The notes under the pieces: generated by a model | The model's input: the letters and a program-made list of their open reading frames with translations, nothing else | Databases searched by the model: none | Told to the model about the DNA's origin: nothing | Position numbers and translations under genes: made by a program | Shown: positions 6,827 through 41,304 of the stretch, piece after piece | How the letters are laid out: every line of letters starts with the position of its first letter | How positions within the stretch are numbered: the first letter of the stretch is position 1 | NCBI GenBank assembly: GCA_020444505.1 | Contig: JAHLKU010000018.1 | Span: 1-46,442 of the forward strand | Length of the DNA stretch: 46,442 bases | Source of the DNA: Actinomycetota bacterium | GTDB lineage: Bacteria; Actinomycetota; Acidimicrobiia; Spongiisociales; UBA11373 | Reading direction: 5' to 3'

Positions 6827-6867
6827 GCGGCCCCGCCGCACCCCTTCCCCCGCCGCGCTCCCGTCGA

Positions 6868-6873
6868 TACGGT
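6868..6873 (+). promoter_or_regulatory. -10 element TACGGT, leaderless promoter
   Basis: TACGGT 5 bases before the GTG at 6879; no ribosome binding site. Confidence 0.5.
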
Positions 6874-6878
6874 GCAGC

Positions 6879-7418
6879 GTGTACTGGCTGCAGCGACCCC
6901 CCTACGTCCGCTGGGCGGCCGCCGCGTTGCTGGTGGCGGGCGCCGCCGCCTGGGACCTCCGCCCCGAGCCCACGGCGTCCCATCCGTTCCTCACCTCAGC
7001 CGTCCCCGCCGGGACCGAAATCACGCCCGCCCACCTGGAGTGGCGCCGCGTGCCCGACGGGCTGCTGCCCCCGGTGGACGGCGCCGGCGCGGTGGCGGCG
7101 GCCGACCTGGAGGAGGGCGATCCCCTGGTCCCGTCGATGCTCACCCGCACCGTCGCCGCGCCGGAAGGATGGTGGGAGGTGCCGGTGGAGGCAGGCACCC
7201 GGGCTCGCCCCGGAGACCGGGTGATGCTGGTGGTCGTGGACCCCCCTGCGGCCGTGGTGGGCATCGTGCTGGCCGCCCAGGAAGGCGACCCGTACTCGCT
7301 GGGGTACCGCCCCGCTGCGGTCGCCGTCCCCGCCGAGGACGCCCCGCTGATCGCCGCAGCATCGGCACAGGGCGCCCTGGTCGCCGCCGTGCAGCCCGCA
7401 ACGCCCCCACCGGGGTAA
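6879..7418 (+). CDS. SAF-domain membrane-anchored protein (CpaB/FlgA-like)
   Basis: A 179-residue protein with one N-terminal membrane anchor (about residues 12-26) and a SAF domain from about residue 38. AVPAGTEITPAHLEWRRVP and the later LEEGDPLVPSML are the typical beta-clip sequences. SAF domains of this layout occur in CpaB/RcpC of Tad pili and in FlgA-like chaperones. No other Tad genes flank it, but a lone Flp pilin lies at 40682. Function is assigned only at domain level. The GTG start follows a TACGGT hexamer. Confidence 0.7.
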   Translation: MYWLQRPPYVRWAAAALLVAGAAAWDLRPEPTASHPFLTSAVPAGTEITPAHLEWRRVPDGLLPPVDGAGAVAAADLEEGDPLVPSMLTRTVAAPEGWWEVPVEAGTRARPGDRVMLVVVDPPAAVVGIVLAAQEGDPYSLGYRPAAVAVPAEDAPLIAAASAQGALVAAVQPATPPPG

Positions 7419-7421
7419 GGT
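7416..7421 (+). promoter_or_regulatory. -10 element TAAGGT, leaderless promoter of uppP
   Basis: TAAGGT 8 bases before the ATG at 7430. The TAA of the hexamer is also the stop codon of the preceding gene. No ribosome binding site. Confidence 0.6.
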
Positions 7422-7429
7422 TCCCGCCG

Positions 7430-8191
7430 ATGCTCACCGCCGCCTTCTGGGGCCTCGTACAGGGCCTCACCGAATTCCTCCCCGTCTCCTCCAGCGGGCA
7501 CCTCGTCCTGGTGCCGGCGCTGCTGGGGATGGAGGAGCCCGACCTGGCCACGTCCGCCGTGCTGCACCTGGGGACGCTGGCCGCGGTGCTGTGGTACTAC
7601 CGGCACGATCTGGCCCGCCTCGCCCGGGTCCGCACCGACCCCGACGCCCGGCGCATCCTGTGGCTGCTCGCCGTGGGGACCGTCCCCGCCGCGGTGATCG
7701 GCATCGTGTTCGACCGCAAGATCGAGATCATCTTCTCCGAGCCCTGGCTGGCGGCGGCGCTGCTCATCGGCACCGGGGCCGTCCTGGCGCTGGGGCTGCT
7801 GATCCCCCGTGGCGCCCGCCACCTGGAGTCGGGCAGGACCGGCGATGCCCTGGTGGTCGGGTGGGCGCAGGCCCTGGCGCTGCTGCCGGGCGTGTCCCGC
7901 TCCGGGATGACGATGACGGCCGCCATGGCCCAGGGGTTCGAGCGGGTGCAGGCGGCCCGCTTCGCCTTCCTGCTCGCGGTGCCCGCCATCGCCGGGGCCG
8001 GCAGCCTGAAGGCGGCCGACCTGGTGCGCCAGGGCGGGTTCGAACCGGCGATGCTGGCCGGCGTGGCGACCGCCGCCGTGTCGGGCTACTTCGCCATCGA
8101 CGTGCTCATCCGCCTGCTGGGCCGCTACGGCCTGGCCCCCTACGCCGTGTACTGCATCGTCTTCGGGTCGCTCGCCTGGTGGCTGGTCTGA
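7430..8191 (+). CDS. uppP: Undecaprenyl-diphosphatase (UppP/BacA)
   Basis: A 253-residue polytopic membrane protein. It begins with the family hallmark GLVQGLTEFLPVSSSGHLVL and later has LPGVSRSGMTMTAAMAQG, the two halves of the active site with the catalytic Glu, Ser and Arg residues. It dephosphorylates undecaprenyl pyrophosphate to recycle the lipid carrier for cell-wall synthesis, and confers basal bacitracin tolerance. Length is normal. The ATG at 7430 is chosen because the family starts at this point and a TAAGGT hexamer lies just upstream. Confidence 0.95.
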   Translation: MLTAAFWGLVQGLTEFLPVSSSGHLVLVPALLGMEEPDLATSAVLHLGTLAAVLWYYRHDLARLARVRTDPDARRILWLLAVGTVPAAVIGIVFDRKIEIIFSEPWLAAALLIGTGAVLALGLLIPRGARHLESGRTGDALVVGWAQALALLPGVSRSGMTMTAAMAQGFERVQAARFAFLLAVPAIAGAGSLKAADLVRQGGFEPAMLAGVATAAVSGYFAIDVLIRLLGRYGLAPYAVYCIVFGSLAWWLV

Positions 8192-8194
8192 GGG

Positions 8195-8222
8195 GGGCGG
8201 CCCACCACGGCCGGTGCCGCCC
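8195..8222 (+). terminator. Candidate hairpin terminator after uppP
   Basis: GGGCGGC (8195-8201) and GCCGCCC (8216-8222) form a perfect 7-bp stem with a 14-base loop, just after the uppP stop. No T-run follows, as is common in GC-rich actinobacteria. Confidence 0.4.
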
Positions 8223-8226
8223 GCTC

Positions 8227-8232
8227 TAACCT
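8227..8232 (+). promoter_or_regulatory. -10 element TAACCT, leaderless promoter
   Basis: TAACCT 7 bases before the GTG at 8240; no ribosome binding site. Confidence 0.6.
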
Positions 8233-8239
8233 CCGGTCC

Positions 8240-8650
8240 GTGCACCGGACCACCATCCACGTCCGCTGGGGCGAACTGGACCCCTACCACCACGTCAACC
8301 ACGCGACGTACCTCTCCTACCTGGAGCACGCCCGCATCGCCGCGCTGGAGTCGATCGGGTGGGGCATGGACGAGATCGCCGCCACCGGCCACCAGGTGGT
8401 GGTGGTGCGAGTCGACGTGCGCTTCGTCGCCCCGGCGGTCGGCGGGGACGAACTGGTGGTGGAGACCGCCATCGAACGGCTGCGCGGCGCCAGCAGCACC
8501 TGGCGGCAGCGCATCCTCCGGGGCGGCGAGGTCGTCCTCGACGCCGAGGTGACCGCCGCCTGCACCGACCTGGAGGGGCGCCCGTCGCGCACGCCGGCCG
8601 AGTTCCAGGAAGCGCTCCGGGCGCTGCTGGACGCCGGGGAGGGCCGGTGA
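8240..8650 (+). CDS. Acyl-CoA thioesterase, 4HBT/YbgC-like hotdog fold
   Basis: A 136-residue single hotdog-fold domain. The N-terminal VRWGELDPYHHVNHATYLSY contains the catalytic Asp and the HVNH signature of the 4-hydroxybenzoyl-CoA thioesterase group. Such enzymes hydrolyse acyl-CoA thioesters; chain-length preference is not predictable. Its TGA overlaps the GTG of the next gene (GTGA), so the two are probably cotranscribed and translationally coupled. Confidence 0.88.
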   Translation: MHRTTIHVRWGELDPYHHVNHATYLSYLEHARIAALESIGWGMDEIAATGHQVVVVRVDVRFVAPAVGGDELVVETAIERLRGASSTWRQRILRGGEVVLDAEVTAACTDLEGRPSRTPAEFQEALRALLDAGEGR

Positions 8651-9459
8651 GGAGCCGTCTCGCCGCCCTCGCCGTGGTCCTGGCCGCCGCCGCGGCAACG
8701 GCGGCGTGCGGCGGGGAAGCGGTGGACACCGGCGCCTACGACTACCTGTTCGGCGACCCGGCCGGGGCCACCGGGCTCGGCGATTCCGCCTGCCGCCCCG
8801 AACTGGTCGTCGACGGCGTGGTCGAGTTCCGCGCCACCGAGGGGACGCCGGCCCTGCTGGACGACCTCCGCTCCCGCGTCCTGGAGAACCCGCCGGCCCT
8901 GCCCGACGGCGACCCCTACGAGGATCCGTCGCTGGTGCCGGCCGACACCAGCGGGGTGTGCGCCGCCACGTTCGGCGCGTCGTCGTACCGCCTCGACACC
9001 TTCGCCGACACGGCGGAAGCGGACGCGGCGGGCGCGGTGGTCACCCACACCGGGGCGTGCGGAGCCTGCTCCGGCTTCGGGGACCTCGCCGTGTACCTGG
9101 AGCACCGGGACCTGGGAGACGCGGTCCGGGCCTGCGCGCTGCTGGCGCTGGGCAGCGACCCCGAGGCCACCCGGTCCTGCCTGCTCGACATCGGCTTCAG
9201 CGAGCCGTGCGCCCAGGCGTGGTGGTACAACAGCCTGCACACCCGCGACGCCTGCCTGGTGGTCTGCCTCGACGCCCTGAACGACCCCAACCACCTGCCG
9301 GATGGTTCGCTGAACCCGTGCCTCGCCTGCGACGAGGCCGAGAGCGGGCCGGTGTTCAAGGCCGTCGCAGGGCGCACCCGGCGCAACTCGGGCATCCCCA
9401 CCGCCATCTGCCGTCCCGGCGAGTCGGTGTCGCCGGTGCCCCACGACGCCTACCCGTAG
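8647..9459 (+). CDS. Cysteine-rich lipoprotein of unknown function
   Basis: A 270-residue predicted lipoprotein. The signal peptide ends in ATAAC with the acylated Cys at about residue 21. The mature part contains 12 further cysteines, several in close pairs (GACGAC, DACLVVC, NPCLAC), which suggests disulfides in an exported domain. GFGDLAVYLEHRDLG and SEPCAQAWWYNSLHTRDACL are distinctive segments but I do not recognise a family. The GTG start lies in the stop of the thioesterase gene and gives the right lipobox distance. The calculation that the even cysteine number reflects disulfides is inference. Confidence 0.7.
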   Translation: MRSRLAALAVVLAAAAATAACGGEAVDTGAYDYLFGDPAGATGLGDSACRPELVVDGVVEFRATEGTPALLDDLRSRVLENPPALPDGDPYEDPSLVPADTSGVCAATFGASSYRLDTFADTAEADAAGAVVTHTGACGACSGFGDLAVYLEHRDLGDAVRACALLALGSDPEATRSCLLDIGFSEPCAQAWWYNSLHTRDACLVVCLDALNDPNHLPDGSLNPCLACDEAESGPVFKAVAGRTRRNSGIPTAICRPGESVSPVPHDAYP

Positions 9460-24883: not shown

Positions 24884-25687
24884 ATGGCCATCGGCCGCTG
24901 TTCGGAATGCGGGGGACAGGTCTCTGATCGAGCCGAGGCGTGCCCTCACTGCGGGATACGACTGGCTGGGCCTCCCGTCGTCGCCCCTGCGCCGGTGCCG
25001 GCCGTCCCGGCGATCGGCCGGGCCCCCCGGCCGGCCCGGGGCGCGGGCGAGCGATGGCCGTCCACGCTCGGCGGGCTGCTGCTGATCGTCTCGGCGGTGC
25101 TGCCGTGGCTCGGCGACGTGTACTCGTCGACGTTCGGCTTCCGGGTCCCGGTGGCGGTGGCGTGGGACCTGGAGGCTCCCGAGAGCCTGCTGTCGGTGGG
25201 CATCGTGCTCGCCGTCCTCGGCCTGACCGGCCTGGCGGCGGCCTCGGTCCGCTGGGGGTGGCCGCTCCGCCAGATCGCCGCCTCCCTCGCCGTGGTCCTG
25301 ACGGCGGCGGTGATGGTGCAGGCGGCCCGGTTCACACTCGACGTGGGCGGATCGTGGACCAGCATGCTCAACGGCATGTCCATCGGCCCGTACGCCGCGC
25401 TGGCCGGCGCGCTGGTGCTGCTGCTGGCGCCGGTGCCGCCGCCGCTGAAGGTGCGCCTGCCGAGGTGGGGTGCGGACACCGCAGCGACGGCGACGCCGCA
25501 ACCCGCCGTCGCGGCGCCGCCTGAACAGGAAGCGGTGGCACCGGCGACCGAGGAAGCACCGGAAGGGCCAGAGCAGACCGGCGCACCCGGGCCCGGCACC
25601 GGTGAAGAGCACGCGGCCGGCACCGACCCGGAGGAGCCGGTCCCGGAGGCCCAGGGGGGCGACGATGACGGCGAGACCATCCCGTAG
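24884..25687 (+). CDS. Zinc-ribbon membrane protein
   Basis: A 267-residue protein. The N-terminal CSECGGQVSDRAEACPHCG is a zinc ribbon with Cys6, Cys9, Cys20 and Cys23. Four hydrophobic helices follow at about 60-80, 100-125, 132-150 and 170-190. The last 70 residues are a Pro/Ala/Glu-rich, acidic, probably disordered tail. Zinc-ribbon membrane proteins of this kind are common in actinobacteria and have no general function. GGGGGGAGG fixes the ATG. Its 3' end overlaps the ALPSS gene by 23 bases, so the two are likely coexpressed. Confidence 0.75.
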   Translation: MAIGRCSECGGQVSDRAEACPHCGIRLAGPPVVAPAPVPAVPAIGRAPRPARGAGERWPSTLGGLLLIVSAVLPWLGDVYSSTFGFRVPVAVAWDLEAPESLLSVGIVLAVLGLTGLAAASVRWGWPLRQIAASLAVVLTAAVMVQAARFTLDVGGSWTSMLNGMSIGPYAALAGALVLLLAPVPPPLKVRLPRWGADTAATATPQPAVAAPPEQEAVAPATEEAPEGPEQTGAPGPGTGEEHAAGTDPEEPVPEAQGGDDDGETIP

Positions 25688-28600
25688 CAGCGGCCGGATC
25701 CGCAGGTCGGCGGGCGCCGGCCTCGCGATCGCGCTCCTCGCCGCCTCGTTCGCCGCCGCACCGGAGGTCTCGGCCCAGGACCGGTCGGGGATCGAGACCG
25801 TCAGCCTCTCCTCCCCCCGCTGCCCCGACACGGTGGAACGCGTGGAGCCCACCGGTTCCACGCACGTCACCAACACCATCGTGTCCACGCAGGAGTTCAC
25901 CGACGCCGTGTCGTCGGGGCTCGTCGACCGGCTCGGAGGCGACGAGGCCGCCCGGCTGGTCGTGGGGGAGGCCGTCTCGGCGGCGGTCACCCGCTACCGC
26001 CAGGCACACGAGAACACCGGGAACACGCTCTCCATGGAGACGGTGGACATGGCCGAGTTCACCGAACTGGTCGTCGGCGAGCTCGTGGCGATGCACGCGC
26101 TCCCCTCCAGCGCGCTCCCCTCCAGCGCGCTCCCCTCCAGCGCACGCCCGGCGAGCGCCCTGCCGGAAGGCATCACCATCGAGGAGGTGCGGACCGAGGT
26201 CCAGGGGGCCGTCGTCGAATCGGTGTTCGAGGCGCTGCCGTCGAGCGGCTTCCCGGCCGGGCAGGTGGACCTGTTCACCAACCAGTTGCTCGGCAACGTG
26301 CTCTCGGCGCTGCCGTCGAGCGGGTTCCCGGCAGCAGAGAGGATCGTCTCCAGCGTGGTGGCTGCGCACACGGTGGACGGTGCGCTGCCGTCGAGCGCCA
26401 TGCCGGCCCTGGTGGCGGAGCTCCAGACGAGGCTCGACGCCCTCCCGGCGAGCGCCCTCCCCTCCAGCGCCCTGCCTTCGAGCTTCGCCGTCGACTGCGT
26501 CAACGCCTCGGCGGCGCTCCCCTCCAGCCTCGCCTTCGACTTCTCCCAGGAGATGGGGGCCCTCCCGTCCAGCGCGCTGCCCTCGAGCGCACTCCCCTCC
26601 AGCGCGCTCCCCTCCAGCGCCCTGCCCTCCAGCGCCCTGCCCTCCAGCGCCCTCCCCTCCAGCATCACGCAGACCGATGCGACGTCGGAGGCGATGGGGA
26701 AGGCCTTCTTCGACCCGGCGAACGCGCTGCCATCGAGCGCACTCCCCTCCAGCGCCCTGCCGTCCAGCGCCGTGCCGTGGGCAGACCTGATGACGGAGAT
26801 CGGCTCGGGCTTCGCCCGCGCACTGCCGTCCAGCGCCCTGCCGTCCAGTGCGCTCCCGTCCAGCGCCCTGCCCTCCAGCGCCCTGCCCTCCAGCGCCCTG
26901 CCCTCCAGTGCGCTCCCCTCCAGCGCACTGCCGTCGAGCATCTACAGCCGGGCGCTCTTCCAGTCGCTCGCCAATCTCAACCAGCGCAACGCGCTCCCCT
27001 CCAGCGCACTGCCCTCCAGTGCGCTGCCTTCCAGTGCGCTGCCCTCCAGTGCGCTGCCCTCCAGCGCACTCCCCTCCAGCGCGCTGCCCTCCAGCGCCGT
27101 CACCGAACTCGTCGAGCCGCTGGCGAACGAGATGCGGGCCGTCCTCGCCGAGTGGGGCGCAGACGCCTCTGCCCTCCCCTCCAGCGCCGCCATCACCGAA
27201 CTCATCTACGGCGCCGCCTTCCGGGCGCTGCCGTCGAGCCTCTCCCTCGAGGAGGCCCTGCCGTCGAGCATGACGGCCGAGATGCCCGAGATCCTCTCGG
27301 CAGGCATCGCCGACTCGATGGCGATGCGCGGCCTGGGCGTCGAGCCGTCCGAGATCCTCGGCGCCCTCCCCTCCAGCCTCGTCCTGGAACCGGTGGCCGA
27401 CATCCCCTCCGTCGTGTTCGGCCGGGCCGACCTGGCCGCCGCAGCGGCGCGGCCCGCGCTCGGCGGCATGTTCGACGACCAGTCGGCCATCCTCCCCTCC
27501 GACCTGGCCCAGGTGGCGCGCACCGGCTTCCAGCAGGGCATGGCGGTCGTGGCACTCGGCAGCGGCCTCTCCTTCGCGGCAGCGGACCTCACCGAGCCGT
27601 GCGTCCTGACGACGCGGCACACCGGCGAGGTCGGGGCGTCCACCTCCTTCACGGTGGGGGCGATGGTCGGCACACCGGACCCCTGGGACGTCATCGAGGG
27701 CGATCTCACCGTGTTCGACAGGTGGCGGGGCGAGGACATGGGATGGGAGATCGACGTCAACGACTGCGGCTACACGATGACCCACCCCGACCGGGCGGCG
27801 TACGACGTGCAGATCCACATCCCCGACGATGCCGTCGACGGCTACCTCGCCGGCCTGTCGAGCCCGGCGCAGGTCCAGGTGCTGCGGTGCAACGGGTACG
27901 ACACCGAGTTCTCCGAGCACTCGTACTCCTGGTACGACCCGTCGACCGGCAACCGGGGCGGAGGGGTCTTCGTGCCGTCGGAGTGGACCAGCGGCACGAA
28001 GATCTTCGTGCCGGTGCTGGCAGGGAGCCGCACCATCACCGGAGGGGTGACGGTGCCCCCCTGGATCCCCGAGGCCCTGCGGGTCGAGGAGCCGGAGATC
28101 CCTTCGGCGCTCGACGACCAGTACCGGTCCCTCGTCGAAGCCTGGGCGGACGAGCCGTGCCAGGTCCCCGGCACCGATCTCTACGAGGTCCCGAACCTGC
28201 GAGGGAAGACCGAGGAGCAGGCGATCGATGCCATCGAGCACTGCGGATTCCTCGCCCTCGGCGGCAGCACCGAGGTCGAAGAGGACGATCCTCTGGTCGC
28301 GCTGGTAGCCGGCCAGACCCCGGAAGCCGGCGAGCAGAAGCCCAAGGGCTCGTTCGTCACCTACTTGATCGGCATGCCGAGGTCCGGTCCCACCACGTCG
28401 CCGCCCGAGACCAGCACGCCCGGGACCAGCCCGACCACGACGTCCGGGACGATCACGTTCAAGGACTACAAGAACACCGCCTGCGCATGGGCCCGGGCCG
28501 ACATCATCAACGAGGGCCTCAATGTGGGCGCATGCCAGTTCGCCTGGTACGCCACCATCGAGTCGGGGCTGATCGGCAAGGTCGACAGCCAGGAGCCGGC

Positions 28601-28733
28601 CGCCGGCACCCACCTGGCGCCCGGCACCACGGTCGAGTTGTGGCAGTGGGAGGCGGCGACCAGCGAGCACCAATGTGGCCAGATCCCCGGCTACTGGTGG
28701 GACAACGGGTGCCACTCGAACCCGGAGCCATGA
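25665..28733 (+). CDS. Secreted ALPSS-pentapeptide repeat protein with PASTA-like domains
   Basis: A 1022-residue exported protein. A twin-basic N-terminus and hydrophobic core end in APEVSAQD, a plausible signal-peptidase site near residue 38. Between about 145 and 571 the pentapeptide ALPSS occurs about 38 times: tandem runs of 3, 7, 3, 8 and 7 units plus single copies before short helices (for example EALPSSGFPAGQ). Residues about 575-835 form an unidentified domain with cysteines. A PASTA-like domain follows from about 842 (VPNLRGKTEEQAIDAIEHCGF), then a Thr/Pro linker and a second PASTA-like unit from about 930. PASTA units bind peptidoglycan or muropeptides in other proteins, so a cell-wall-associated role is inferred. 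The ATG at 25665 has AGGGGGG upstream; the open frame before it is shadow. Confidence 0.8.
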   Translation: MTARPSRSSGRIRRSAGAGLAIALLAASFAAAPEVSAQDRSGIETVSLSSPRCPDTVERVEPTGSTHVTNTIVSTQEFTDAVSSGLVDRLGGDEAARLVVGEAVSAAVTRYRQAHENTGNTLSMETVDMAEFTELVVGELVAMHALPSSALPSSALPSSARPASALPEGITIEEVRTEVQGAVVESVFEALPSSGFPAGQVDLFTNQLLGNVLSALPSSGFPAAERIVSSVVAAHTVDGALPSSAMPALVAELQTRLDALPASALPSSALPSSFAVDCVNASAALPSSLAFDFSQEMGALPSSALPSSALPSSALPSSALPSSALPSSALPSSITQTDATSEAMGKAFFDPANALPSSALPSSALPSSAVPWADLMTEIGSGFARALPSSALPSSALPSSALPSSALPSSALPSSALPSSALPSSIYSRALFQSLANLNQRNALPSSALPSSALPSSALPSSALPSSALPSSALPSSAVTELVEPLANEMRAVLAEWGADASALPSSAAITELIYGAAFRALPSSLSLEEALPSSMTAEMPEILSAGIADSMAMRGLGVEPSEILGALPSSLVLEPVADIPSVVFGRADLAAAAARPALGGMFDDQSAILPSDLAQVARTGFQQGMAVVALGSGLSFAAADLTEPCVLTTRHTGEVGASTSFTVGAMVGTPDPWDVIEGDLTVFDRWRGEDMGWEIDVNDCGYTMTHPDRAAYDVQIHIPDDAVDGYLAGLSSPAQVQVLRCNGYDTEFSEHSYSWYDPSTGNRGGGVFVPSEWTSGTKIFVPVLAGSRTITGGVTVPPWIPEALRVEEPEIPSALDDQYRSLVEAWADEPCQVPGTDLYEVPNLRGKTEEQAIDAIEHCGFLALGGSTEVEEDDPLVALVAGQTPEAGEQKPKGSFVTYLIGMPRSGPTTSPPETSTPGTSPTTTSGTITFKDYKNTACAWARADIINEGLNVGACQFAWYATIESGLIGKVDSQEPAAGTHLAPGTTVELWQWEAATSEHQCGQIPGYWWDNGCHSNPEP
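26097..27377 (+). repeat. 15-bp imperfect tandem repeat array coding ALPSS
   Basis: Units read gcN-ctS-ccN-tcS-agY and vary at almost every third position, yet the encoded Ala-Leu-Pro-Ser-Ser is unchanged in about 38 units. The longest uninterrupted runs are 8, 7 and 7 units. A few units are altered at protein level (ARPAS, ALPAS, AVPWA). Confidence 0.9.
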
Positions 28734-28749: not shown

Positions 28750-30009
28750 ATGATGCGCTGGCGCCGCTGGGTGATCCCGCTGGCCACGCTGGTGGCGGTG
28801 ATCGTCGTCGCCATCGTGATCCCGACGATCGATGCCGAGCCGGCCGCCGAGCCGGCCGACGCCACGACGACGACCGAAGCGCCGGACCCGGGCCCCGGCC
28901 CGGGGGTGACCGACGGCGAGATCGTGCTCGGGGTGCTGGCCGCCACCAGCGGTGACGCACAGGCGGCCGGTCTCCGGGCCCTCGCCGGCCACGAGGCGTA
29001 CTGGGACGCCCACCCCCTGGTCGGGGACCGCCGCATCACCCTCGACGTGCAAGACGGAGCGCTCGACCGAGCCACGTCGGCGACGGCGTTCCGGATCATG
29101 GAGGACGACGTCGCCATGATCTCCTCGTCGGTCGGCACGTCGTACGTCGCCGCGGACGCCGCCCTGATCGGGTTGCTCGTCGTGGCCGACTCGACCGTCG
29201 AGCAGTGGTCCGGCGTGGCCACCGTGCTCCCCAATGCCGGCCTCGCCGCCCCCGGCGACGAGGTGGAAGCCGGCGTGCTGTGGGCGTTCGGGGGCGGATC
29301 GCTCGCCCGGTCGGATGCCGATGCGATCGGCATCGTCGTCGGCGACGGTGTGGCCGGTGGCGAATGCCTCGCCGGCCTCGACGACGCCGCGCTCCTGCTG
29401 GGAGCCACCGTGGCAACGGTCGAGGTGGCCGATCCGGCCGCTCCGGATGTGGGCGGCGACGTCGAGAGCCTGCAGGATGCCGGAGCGTCGGTCGCCGTGA
29501 TCTGCGTGTCGCCCTCCTACCTGCTGGCGTTCGATGCGGCCGCCGACGCCGCCGGGTACGCCCCGACGGTCATCGCCACCTCGGAGAGCTACGAGGCGTC
29601 GCTTGGGGCCCGGCTCAGCGGCGACGTCTACGTGGTCACCGCCATGCCGCCGTGGGAGAGCGACGAGCCCGGCGTCGCCGAGATGCGGCGGGCGGCGATC
29701 GCCGCCGGGGTCGGCGACGACGTGGTCGACGGGGCCTTCTACGTCGGCTACACGCAGGCAGCCACCGCCCACGCCGTGCTGCTGGCCGCCGAGGCGGACG
29801 GCGGCATGGGGCGGGAGGCGTTCCTCGCGGCGCTCGCCCGTGGCGTGGAGGTGGACCTGCAGATGGGCGGGATACCGGTGACGATCGGCCTCGCCTCAGA
29901 GGAGCGGGTCCCGGCGATCGCCACCGGCATCTACCGCCCGGCCCCCACCACCGAGTGGCGATTCGGCCTGGAGCCGGTGGCCGATCCGTTCGTGGTCCCC
30001 TCCGGCTGA
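28750..30009 (+). CDS. Type-1 periplasmic-binding-like protein (branched-chain amino-acid receptor family)
   Basis: A 419-residue protein with one N-terminal membrane anchor (about 8-25) and a Thr/Glu/Pro linker. The ligand-binding fold then begins with VTDGEIVLGVLAATSGDAQAAG. Paired lobes are marked by DDVAMISSSVGTSYVAADAA, DAIGIVVGDGVAGG and DVYVVTAMPPWESDEPG, as in LivJ-type receptors. No ABC permease or ATPase genes are nearby, and the anchor is a plain helix without a lipobox Cys, so it may be a sensor or orphan receptor. GAGAGGGG precedes the ATG; the ALPSS gene ends 16 bases upstream. ATG at 28753 is an alternative start. Confidence 0.78.
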   Translation: MMRWRRWVIPLATLVAVIVVAIVIPTIDAEPAAEPADATTTTEAPDPGPGPGVTDGEIVLGVLAATSGDAQAAGLRALAGHEAYWDAHPLVGDRRITLDVQDGALDRATSATAFRIMEDDVAMISSSVGTSYVAADAALIGLLVVADSTVEQWSGVATVLPNAGLAAPGDEVEAGVLWAFGGGSLARSDADAIGIVVGDGVAGGECLAGLDDAALLLGATVATVEVADPAAPDVGGDVESLQDAGASVAVICVSPSYLLAFDAAADAAGYAPTVIATSESYEASLGARLSGDVYVVTAMPPWESDEPGVAEMRRAAIAAGVGDDVVDGAFYVGYTQAATAHAVLLAAEADGGMGREAFLAALARGVEVDLQMGGIPVTIGLASEERVPAIATGIYRPAPTTEWRFGLEPVADPFVVPSG

Positions 30010-30296: not shown

Positions 30297-31118
30297 CTAC
30301 CCCCAGGGCTCCAGCAACTCGTAGGCGGACCCGTTCAACTCCACCACGAGCAGGCCAACGTCTTCGTTGAAGAAGCAGGCGACGGGCACGTCCCCACCCA
30401 TGAACGGGCCGCTGAGCACCAGGTCGAAGGCGAACACGTCGTCGAAGGTCCCGGCCCCGACGGTGATCGGGCCGGCGTTGCCCTCCCGCCACGTGAGGTC
30501 GGCGGTGATGTCGTCGGTGATGGTCATCGAGCCGAACCTGGCCTGCACCGTCCCCTCGGCATGGACGGTCTCGCCCGGCCCGGCGGAGAGGTCGAACACC
30601 GACGGCTCGGCGTACACCTCGGACGTGTCTGGGCCGTTGGTGGCTGCGGCCGTGTACACCTCGAGGCCCGCATACCCGGCCACCCACGGCTCGCTCAGGT
30701 CCACGTAGATGGCGATCCCCACCGACCCCGGCTCCGCCTCTCCGAAGACGAAGCGGTCGTAGACGCCGCCGCCGAACTCCACACCGCGCTCCACGCGCAG
30801 TTCGAGGTCGGCGCTGACCCCCAGATCCTCGACGCGGTAGAGGGCGCGGGCGTCGCCGTCGGGGAACATCGCCGCCCAGGAGATGCCGAAGTACGGGTGC
30901 GCATCCGCCGGCAGCGTCGTGGTCGTGGTGGTGGGCGCTGCGGTGGTCGTCGTGGCCGGCGCGGCCGTGGTCGTGGCCGCCGCCGTCGTGGTCGTGGCCG
31001 CGGAGGTGGTCGTGGTGACGGGGGTGGTGGGCCCGGTGGTGGAGCCCGCATCGTCACCGCAGGCGGCGGCCACCATCACCAGGAGCACGGCGAAGAGCAG
31101 GGCACGCGGGAATCTCAC
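30297..31118 (-). CDS. Lipoprotein of unknown function, paralogue A
   Basis: A 273-residue predicted lipoprotein: signal peptide ending VAAAC, then GDDAGS and a long Thr/Ala/Pro linker to about residue 75. The folded domain begins LPADAHPYFGISWAA and ends with GPFMGGDVPVACFF and YELLEPWG, all shared with the protein at 32332. It includes YVDLSEPWVAGYAGLEVY. The family is not recognised. The GTG at 31118 is chosen over upstream ATGs because AAGGAGG lies 4 bases before it and the signal peptide then starts MRFPRALL. Confidence 0.7.
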   Translation of the reverse strand: MRFPRALLFAVLLVMVAAACGDDAGSTTGPTTPVTTTTSAATTTTAAATTTAAPATTTTAAPTTTTTTLPADAHPYFGISWAAMFPDGDARALYRVEDLGVSADLELRVERGVEFGGGVYDRFVFGEAEPGSVGIAIYVDLSEPWVAGYAGLEVYTAAATNGPDTSEVYAEPSVFDLSAGPGETVHAEGTVQARFGSMTITDDITADLTWREGNAGPITVGAGTFDDVFAFDLVLSGPFMGGDVPVACFFNEDVGLLVVELNGSAYELLEPWG

Positions 31119-31186
31119 GACACCTCCTTGGTCCGTCCCCTTCATCATCGCACAGCGCGCCCCCGGCCCGACGGGCCGCCTCCCGG

Positions 31187-40863: not shown

Positions 40864-41304
40864 GTGAAGGTGTTCGCCGTCGGAGTGGAGCCGGTCGGGG
40901 TGGTCGCCGTGGGCGTCGCGCCGCGCGGGGTGCTGGCCGTCGGGCCGCTCGCCACCGGGGTGGTCGCGATCGGGCAGCTGGCCCGGGGGTTCCTCGCCGT
41001 CGGGCAGCTCGCCGTCGGAGTGCTGGCCGTCGGGCAGCTCGCCGCCGGGATGTGGTGGGCGTCGGGCCAGCTGGCCCTCGCCCCCACCGGGGGGCCCGCC
41101 ATGCTCCGCCTGGCCCCCTACGGCACCGCCCGGCCGATCCGGTGGCTGCGCGGGTACGAGGATTGGCGCACCCCCGGCCCCGAGCTCCACGGATGGAAGT
41201 CCGCCGCCGCCCTCGCCTACGTCGCCGCGCTCGCGGTGCTGGTGTGGTTCGTGGCCGTGCTCCCGGCCCGGGATGCCCTGTTCGGCCCGGGCGGCGTCTT
41301 CTGA
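40864..41304 (+). CDS. Glycine-pentad repeat membrane protein
   Basis: A 146-residue protein. Residues about 4-63 consist of twelve pentads of the form A-V-G-x-L (AVGVE, PVGVV, AVGVA, PRGVL, AVGPL, ATGVV, AIGQL and so on) with glycine at every third position of the unit. A polar stretch (TARPIRWLRGYEDWRTPGPELHGW) and a C-terminal transmembrane helix (LAYVAALAVLVWFVAVLP) follow. Such five-residue periodicity suggests a small solenoid, or tightly packed glycine-rich helices. I know of similar uncharacterised proteins but no function. The GTG start has TAGATT 6 bases upstream. Confidence 0.7.
   Translation: MKVFAVGVEPVGVVAVGVAPRGVLAVGPLATGVVAIGQLARGFLAVGQLAVGVLAVGQLAAGMWWASGQLALAPTGGPAMLRLAPYGTARPIRWLRGYEDWRTPGPELHGWKSAAALAYVAALAVLVWFVAVLPARDALFGPGGVF
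40870..41049 (+). repeat. 15-bp repeats coding the glycine pentads
   Basis: Units such as gccgtcgggcagctc recur with substitutions about every 15 bases; the third codon of each unit is glycine throughout. Confidence 0.75.

Follow-up and report, generated by a model that had tools for sequence, protein, structure and literature searches.

ALPSS pentapeptide arrays in a putative envelope protein of an acidimicrobial bacterium, and a wider set of related repeat words

The array gene and its surroundings

A 46,442-nucleotide stretch of DNA (the window; GenBank assembly GCA_020444505.1, contig JAHLKU010000018.1, positions 1 to 46,442) from a bacterium of the class Acidimicrobiia contains a gene whose product carries arrays of ALPSS pentapeptides (Table 1). 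It lies between an upstream gene that encodes a predicted zinc-ribbon membrane protein and shares its final 23 bases with the beginning of the array gene, and a downstream gene for a periplasmic-binding-protein-like product. An antisense open reading frame (ORF) of 1346 residues overlaps the array gene, but its third-position GC content is 0.69 compared with 0.93–0.94 in each of the N-terminal, array, and C-terminal parts of the sense frame, a value that the neighbouring genes share; the sense ORF is thus the coding one.

An earlier note, made from the letters of this DNA alone, described a secreted protein with a signal peptide, about 38 ALPSS units, a Cys-containing domain that it could not place, and a PASTA-like C-terminus, and knew of no described family with such a repeat. 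These points are borne out. The N-terminus (MTARPSRSSGRIRRSAGAGLAIALLAASFAAAPEVSA) is signal-like by eye, and there are exactly 38 ALPSS words between residues 145 and 571, some of them single and the others in runs that reach eight, with spacers of 5–31 residues between units or runs. The region also includes one ALPAS (residue 259) and the decayed units ARPAS and ALPEG. No Pfam or NCBIfam model covers ALPSS-type arrays, our literature search found nothing on the repeat, and a sequence search of the protein against solved structures gave no match. A reaction-centre cytochrome that the arrays matched in a profile search (E 0.0022) was set aside as a presumed effect of low complexity. No homologue of the Cys-containing domain was found in 344 other genomes of the class. 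At the C-terminus, the Pfam PASTA family PF03793 scores 41.2 bits against a gathering cut-off of 23.2, with its best stretch at residues 840–899, and at a lenient E≤1 a second, weaker unit appears. The NCBIfam model for PASTA-containing Ser/Thr kinases (NF033483) reaches 23.3 bits against a threshold of 450, with the PASTA part of the model alone matching; unlike known PASTA proteins, the array protein lacks a kinase or penicillin-binding domain, and its PASTA unit follows the orphan domain and the arrays.

Table 1. Features of the array locus and of the second array gene in the same genome. Positions are those of the window except in the last row.
Feature	Position	Strand	Basis or remark
Upstream gene: N-terminal zinc ribbon and about four membrane helices	24884..25687	+	Zn_ribbon_3; helix count by eye
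Array gene ORF	25665-28733	+	1022 residues, stop-free translation
Signal-peptide-like N-terminus, residues 1-38	25665..25778	+	translation, by eye
N-terminal region, residues 40-144, predicted helical from about residue 75	25782..26096	+	AlphaFold helices 75-144, pLDDT mostly 40-72
ALPSS region, residues 145-571	26097..27377	+	translation; TRF rows 26096-27097
Seven ALPSS in tandem, residues 299-333	26559..26663	+	
Eight ALPSS in tandem, residues 386-425	26820..26939	+	
Seven ALPSS in tandem, residues 443-477	26991..27095	+	
Orphan Cys-containing domain, residues 572-839	27378..28181	+	
PASTA domain, residues 840-899	28182..28361	+	Pfam PF03793 1.6e-10
Pro/Thr/Ser-rich linker, approximate limits	28376..28451	+	translation
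Second, weaker PASTA-like unit, then Cys-containing tail	28452..28652	+	two stretches at E≤1; boundaries by eye
Downstream gene, periplasmic-binding-protein-like	28750..30009	+	PDB 4n03 E 5e-7; 16 bases 3′ of array gene
Second array gene of the window's genome	L027 (G000:C29:9000-25000) 6861-9173	-	whole-genome search; membrane-anchored by eye

A wider set of repeat words

ALPSS is one word of a rare repeat set, A-[I/L]-P-[S/A]-[S/N/E], that also includes ALPAS, AIPSN, and AIPAE, and that the earlier note had not recognized. We defined the set in this analysis as apparently exported proteins with tandem units, of which the window protein is one; with export judged by eye, it includes proteins of a few Acidimicrobiia and of two other phyla. 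Members are present in a second gene of the window's genome (locus L027, on contig C29 of G000), in three other Acidimicrobiia (L026, from G011; L146, from an Ilumatobacter metagenome-assembled genome [MAG]; and L289, from G385), in one Chloroflexota MAG (L087), and in one deltaproteobacterial MAG (G396). Over 27 proteins the most frequent units are ALPSS (77), ALPAS (71), AIPSN (63), AIPAE (20), ALPAA (18), ALPSN (17), and AIPAN (13). The C29 paralogue is dominated by AIPAE (10 of its 16 units, with five AIPSN), and G011 (Acidimicrobiia MAG OFTM344, of the same family as the window's genome) combines AIPSN, AIPAE, ALPSS, and ALPAS in one protein. The Ilumatobacter, Chloroflexota, and deltaproteobacterial members came from a scan of named genomes. 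The Ilumatobacter protein has about 28 units and a PASTA match of 3e-15, the Chloroflexota protein about 22, and the L289 protein about 22 of ALPAS/AIPSN/AIPAE type. The array proteins of C29, G011, L146, and G385 begin with a membrane segment, by eye.

The deltaproteobacterial MAG (RIFOXYA12_FULL_61_11; loci L232–L251) encodes at least 21 array proteins on 20 contigs, with A[IL]P[SA][SNA] words. When the units are masked and the remainders compared by BLAST these proteins form eight groups without detectable mutual similarity, and 18 of 21 have a lipobox-like start, although the pattern is permissive and some assignments are insecure. Some have an FGE-sulfatase-like C-terminus. The C29 and G011 proteins retain similar C-termini after masking (5.75e-17), so the ancestry of the loci is partly common and the six outside G396 do not represent six independent events.

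The arrays are sparsely distributed. Four-unit patterns in 395 Acidimicrobiia located arrays only in G000 and G011, with two further matches discounted; the shortness of its runs kept L289 from being detected in this way. The same patterns found one genome among 301 Chloroflexota (two further matches discounted) and one among 98 genomes around G396, in both cases the seed genome. A three-unit pattern applied to 219 relatives of the Ilumatobacter MAG recovered that MAG itself, the L289 genome, and a few others, of which one was checked and rejected and the rest, seen at the level of the pattern, look unlike the word set. Matches in G655 and G616 (Chloroflexota) and in G292 and G262 (Acidimicrobiia) correspond to short or wrong-frame ORFs or to no ORF, that in G866 has no array ORF, and a candidate additional locus in G849 is the G385 locus again. 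In a collection-wide DNA pattern scan few array proteins were present among the matches listed, most looking by translation like unrelated or wrong-frame repeats. A scan of viruses, made with the Ile-type pattern (AIPxx) and not with the ALPSS word, gave no match.

The distribution of words bears on the earlier suggestion of a substrate for O-glycosylation, which gains no support as a role for the whole set: neither AIPAE nor ALPAA contains a Ser or a Thr, and O-glycosylation is therefore unlikely as a common function of the set. A more specific version, in which the arrays, being rich in Ser, would be O-mannosylated in the manner of mucins, we consider rather improbable. Ser adjoins Pro in these units and the genome has one PMT-family gene (PF02366, 32.4 bits, over the cut-off), but this is weak evidence since PF02366 also matches control genomes such as E. 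coli, and the Ser-free AIPAE makes up most of the units of the C29 paralogue. Given the PMT-family gene, glycosylation of the window protein alone might nonetheless occur.

Codons, unit structure, and predicted fold

The 39 ALPSS/ALPAS units of the window array are encoded by 21 different 15-mers. Among the 33 units in tandem blocks, 59 of the differences from the consensus are synonymous and 6 nonsynonymous. This gives a crude omega of 0.046, which serves for orientation and has no standing as a formal test, the unit pattern having been picked by eye. Because the 15-mers vary yet amino acid changes are rare, it is the peptide that selection maintains. The Ser codon classes are constant, with TCN at Ser4 in 38 of 38 cases and AGY at Ser5 in 39 of 39, and the array therefore grew by local duplication. 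Elsewhere the classes differ, as the G011 arrays use mostly AGY at both Ser positions and the Ilumatobacter array TCN at both; arrays of the same words have thus been built on different codons. These observations weigh on the proposal that the arrays merely expand by replication slippage of 15-base units with no role for the protein. Local spread with fixed codon classes is what slippage would give, but it does not account for the same words on other codon classes, the strong synonymous bias, or the presence of arrays in unrelated exported proteins, and we regard this explanation as highly improbable.

Positions 2 and 5 of the unit are coupled. Of 100 units with Ile2, 97 have Asn or Glu as the fifth residue; of 210 with Leu2, 31 do (chiefly ALPSN and ALPAN, from G396), and most have Ser or Ala there; the Fisher value of 2e-48 is indicative only, as the units are not independent. 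Spacer lengths are multiples of five in 8 of 13 cases in the window protein (p 0.0012) and in 38 of 73 over the 27 array proteins (p 1e-9), which fits either decayed units or a five-residue structure.

The coupling, the strict Ala, Ile/Leu, and Pro, and the spacer lengths raise the question of whether the A[IL]Pxx units fold as an ordered repeat, for example a beta-solenoid related to pentapeptide-repeat proteins, and not as an extended stalk. Pentapeptide repeats (PF00805, PF13599; Rfr beta-helix) likewise have a five-residue period, an Ala in each unit, and spacers tending to multiples of five, and a look-alike AIPFS array in G025 weakly matches Pentapeptide_4 (5.7e-5, under the cut-off). 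However, their units are [STAV][DN][LF]XX, and the arrays here have Pro in every unit and neither the A(D/N)LXX pattern nor its central Leu/Phe; Pentapeptide Pfam families (PF00805 and relatives) give no match at E≤1 to the window protein and none to its relatives, and decay of units could by itself account for spacers of 5 or 10. The right-handed quadrilateral beta-helix of pentapeptide repeats is also not seen in AlphaFold models, which have low confidence: the window protein alone, with a mean confidence score (pLDDT) of 37, is modelled with helices at residues 75–144 and in most spacers and with the long arrays as coil, and a three-sequence alignment led by L146 gives a mean of 33. At such confidence the models do not settle the fold, and we view an ordered repeat of this kind as unlikely.

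The register L-P-S-S-A or I-P-A-E-A, with its strictly conserved hydrophobic-Pro step, also recalls the hydrophobic-Pro-x-x-small order of elastin-like VPGXG, and the arrays could in principle be an elastomeric spring or a set of multivalent binding sites. ALPSS units contain no Gly and so lack the Pro-Gly turn of elastin, their host is bacterial and the protein exported, and no ligand is known; this idea seems to us quite improbable.

Other short repeats were noted alongside these arrays. Very long proteins in G020, G027, G122, and G125 (L031, L062, L063, and L064) have PLGAI arrays alternating with I-D-L-x-x units in a register like that of canonical pentapeptide repeats, and L031 additionally has a legume-lectin domain, together with a segment that by eye recalls C25 peptidases. 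At L030 (G025:C302, 2034–9683, minus strand) an open frame of 2550 residues carries, besides PFSAI arrays, domains of the OmpL47 type and a weak match to Pentapeptide_4. A subtilisin-like protein (by eye) at L005/L028 (G016:C8) ends in WSGNT pentapeptide repeats broken by a stretch of N. Within the window, a 146-residue ORF at 40864–41304 (plus strand) has a different 15-base repeat, encoding LAVGQ/LAVGV pentapeptides, followed by a membrane helix (by eye).

The upstream gene and a possible envelope role

A second feature absent from the earlier note is that the array gene forms a conserved pair with the gene upstream of it, whose product matches Pfam Zn_ribbon_3 at 5.8e-6, just under the cut-off. 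In tblastn searches of the array loci, homologues of this protein are encoded directly 5′ of the array gene at two loci, L146 (6e-11) and L027 (3e-5). Upstream in L087, where two zinc-ribbon membrane proteins are encoded, the match is to the zinc ribbon (3e-4). Reading of the L026 ORFs shows the same type of gene directly upstream there, and in an alignment of the four proteins (window, L027, L026, and L146) both the Cys pairs of the zinc ribbon and the membrane part are common to all. A class-wide profile search with the upstream protein, blind to arrays, led to the new array locus L289, in which a four-helix gene without a zinc ribbon precedes the array gene. Each of the six loci outside G396 thus has, immediately 5′ of the array gene, a gene for a membrane protein with a zinc ribbon, four helices, or both. 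The product of the downstream gene resembles a branched-chain amino-acid binding protein, and a search of 13 further genomes from the family gave no match to it. Adjoining the operon (30297–31148, minus strand) is a lipoprotein-like ORF with a long Thr/Ala-rich stretch and a match to Pfam New_glue (1.2e-6) under the family cut-off.

The reading we favour, at about even confidence, is that the array protein is an exported cell-envelope protein in which a Pro-punctuated stalk is docked to the wall by PASTA and which is expressed together with a membrane partner. It would have four parts, an N-terminal helical part, the stalk, the orphan Cys domain, and the PASTA units, with the stalk consisting of short segments that alternate with Pro-punctuated ALPSS runs. 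The C-terminal PASTA units probably dock on peptidoglycan, in line with the wall attachment that the earlier note had suggested. The two genes, which overlap, are probably co-expressed, and the two proteins would probably belong to one envelope complex, the membrane protein acting as anchor or assembly partner.

Several observations weigh against this reading. Drift is the rule in generic linkers, but here the units are tightly conserved and coupled at positions 2 and 5, hinting at order; both AlphaFold models have a mean pLDDT below 40; and PASTA is present in only two of six proteins, those of the window and L146. As for the partner, of 13 loci taken up from the class-wide profile search, 12 lack an array within the stretch covered, which makes the four-helix family wider than the arrays and not dedicated to them; the sixth locus depends on a homologue that lacks the ribbon; and no zinc-ribbon gene was found near the G396 arrays in the stretches fetched. 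It is conceivable, though we doubt it, that A[IL]P[SA][SNE] units form an ordered extracellular module not described before, one that can move among unrelated exported proteins and does so across at least three phyla, with a five-residue fold in which residues 2 and 5 pack together and, in Acidimicrobiia, assembled or anchored by the zinc-ribbon membrane partner.

Bacterial short-repeat surface proteins such as stalks and Pro-rich linkers are similarly exported and vary in repeat number between relatives, and the array protein is an exported short-repeat protein of this general kind; in contrast, its word set, its 2–5 coupling, and its zinc-ribbon/four-helix neighbour have no description in the libraries and papers searched. 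The new part is the cross-phylum word set and the conserved neighbour. If the units do prove to be a module, they would add a repeat class missing from Pfam and NCBIfam. The gene pair of Acidimicrobiia would then be open to testing, and synthetic peptides as simple as ALPSS, AIPSN, and AIPAE would allow the structure to be measured directly. The at least 21 array proteins of G396, in eight unrelated backgrounds, suggest a repeat that is able to spread across the entire exported proteome of an organism.

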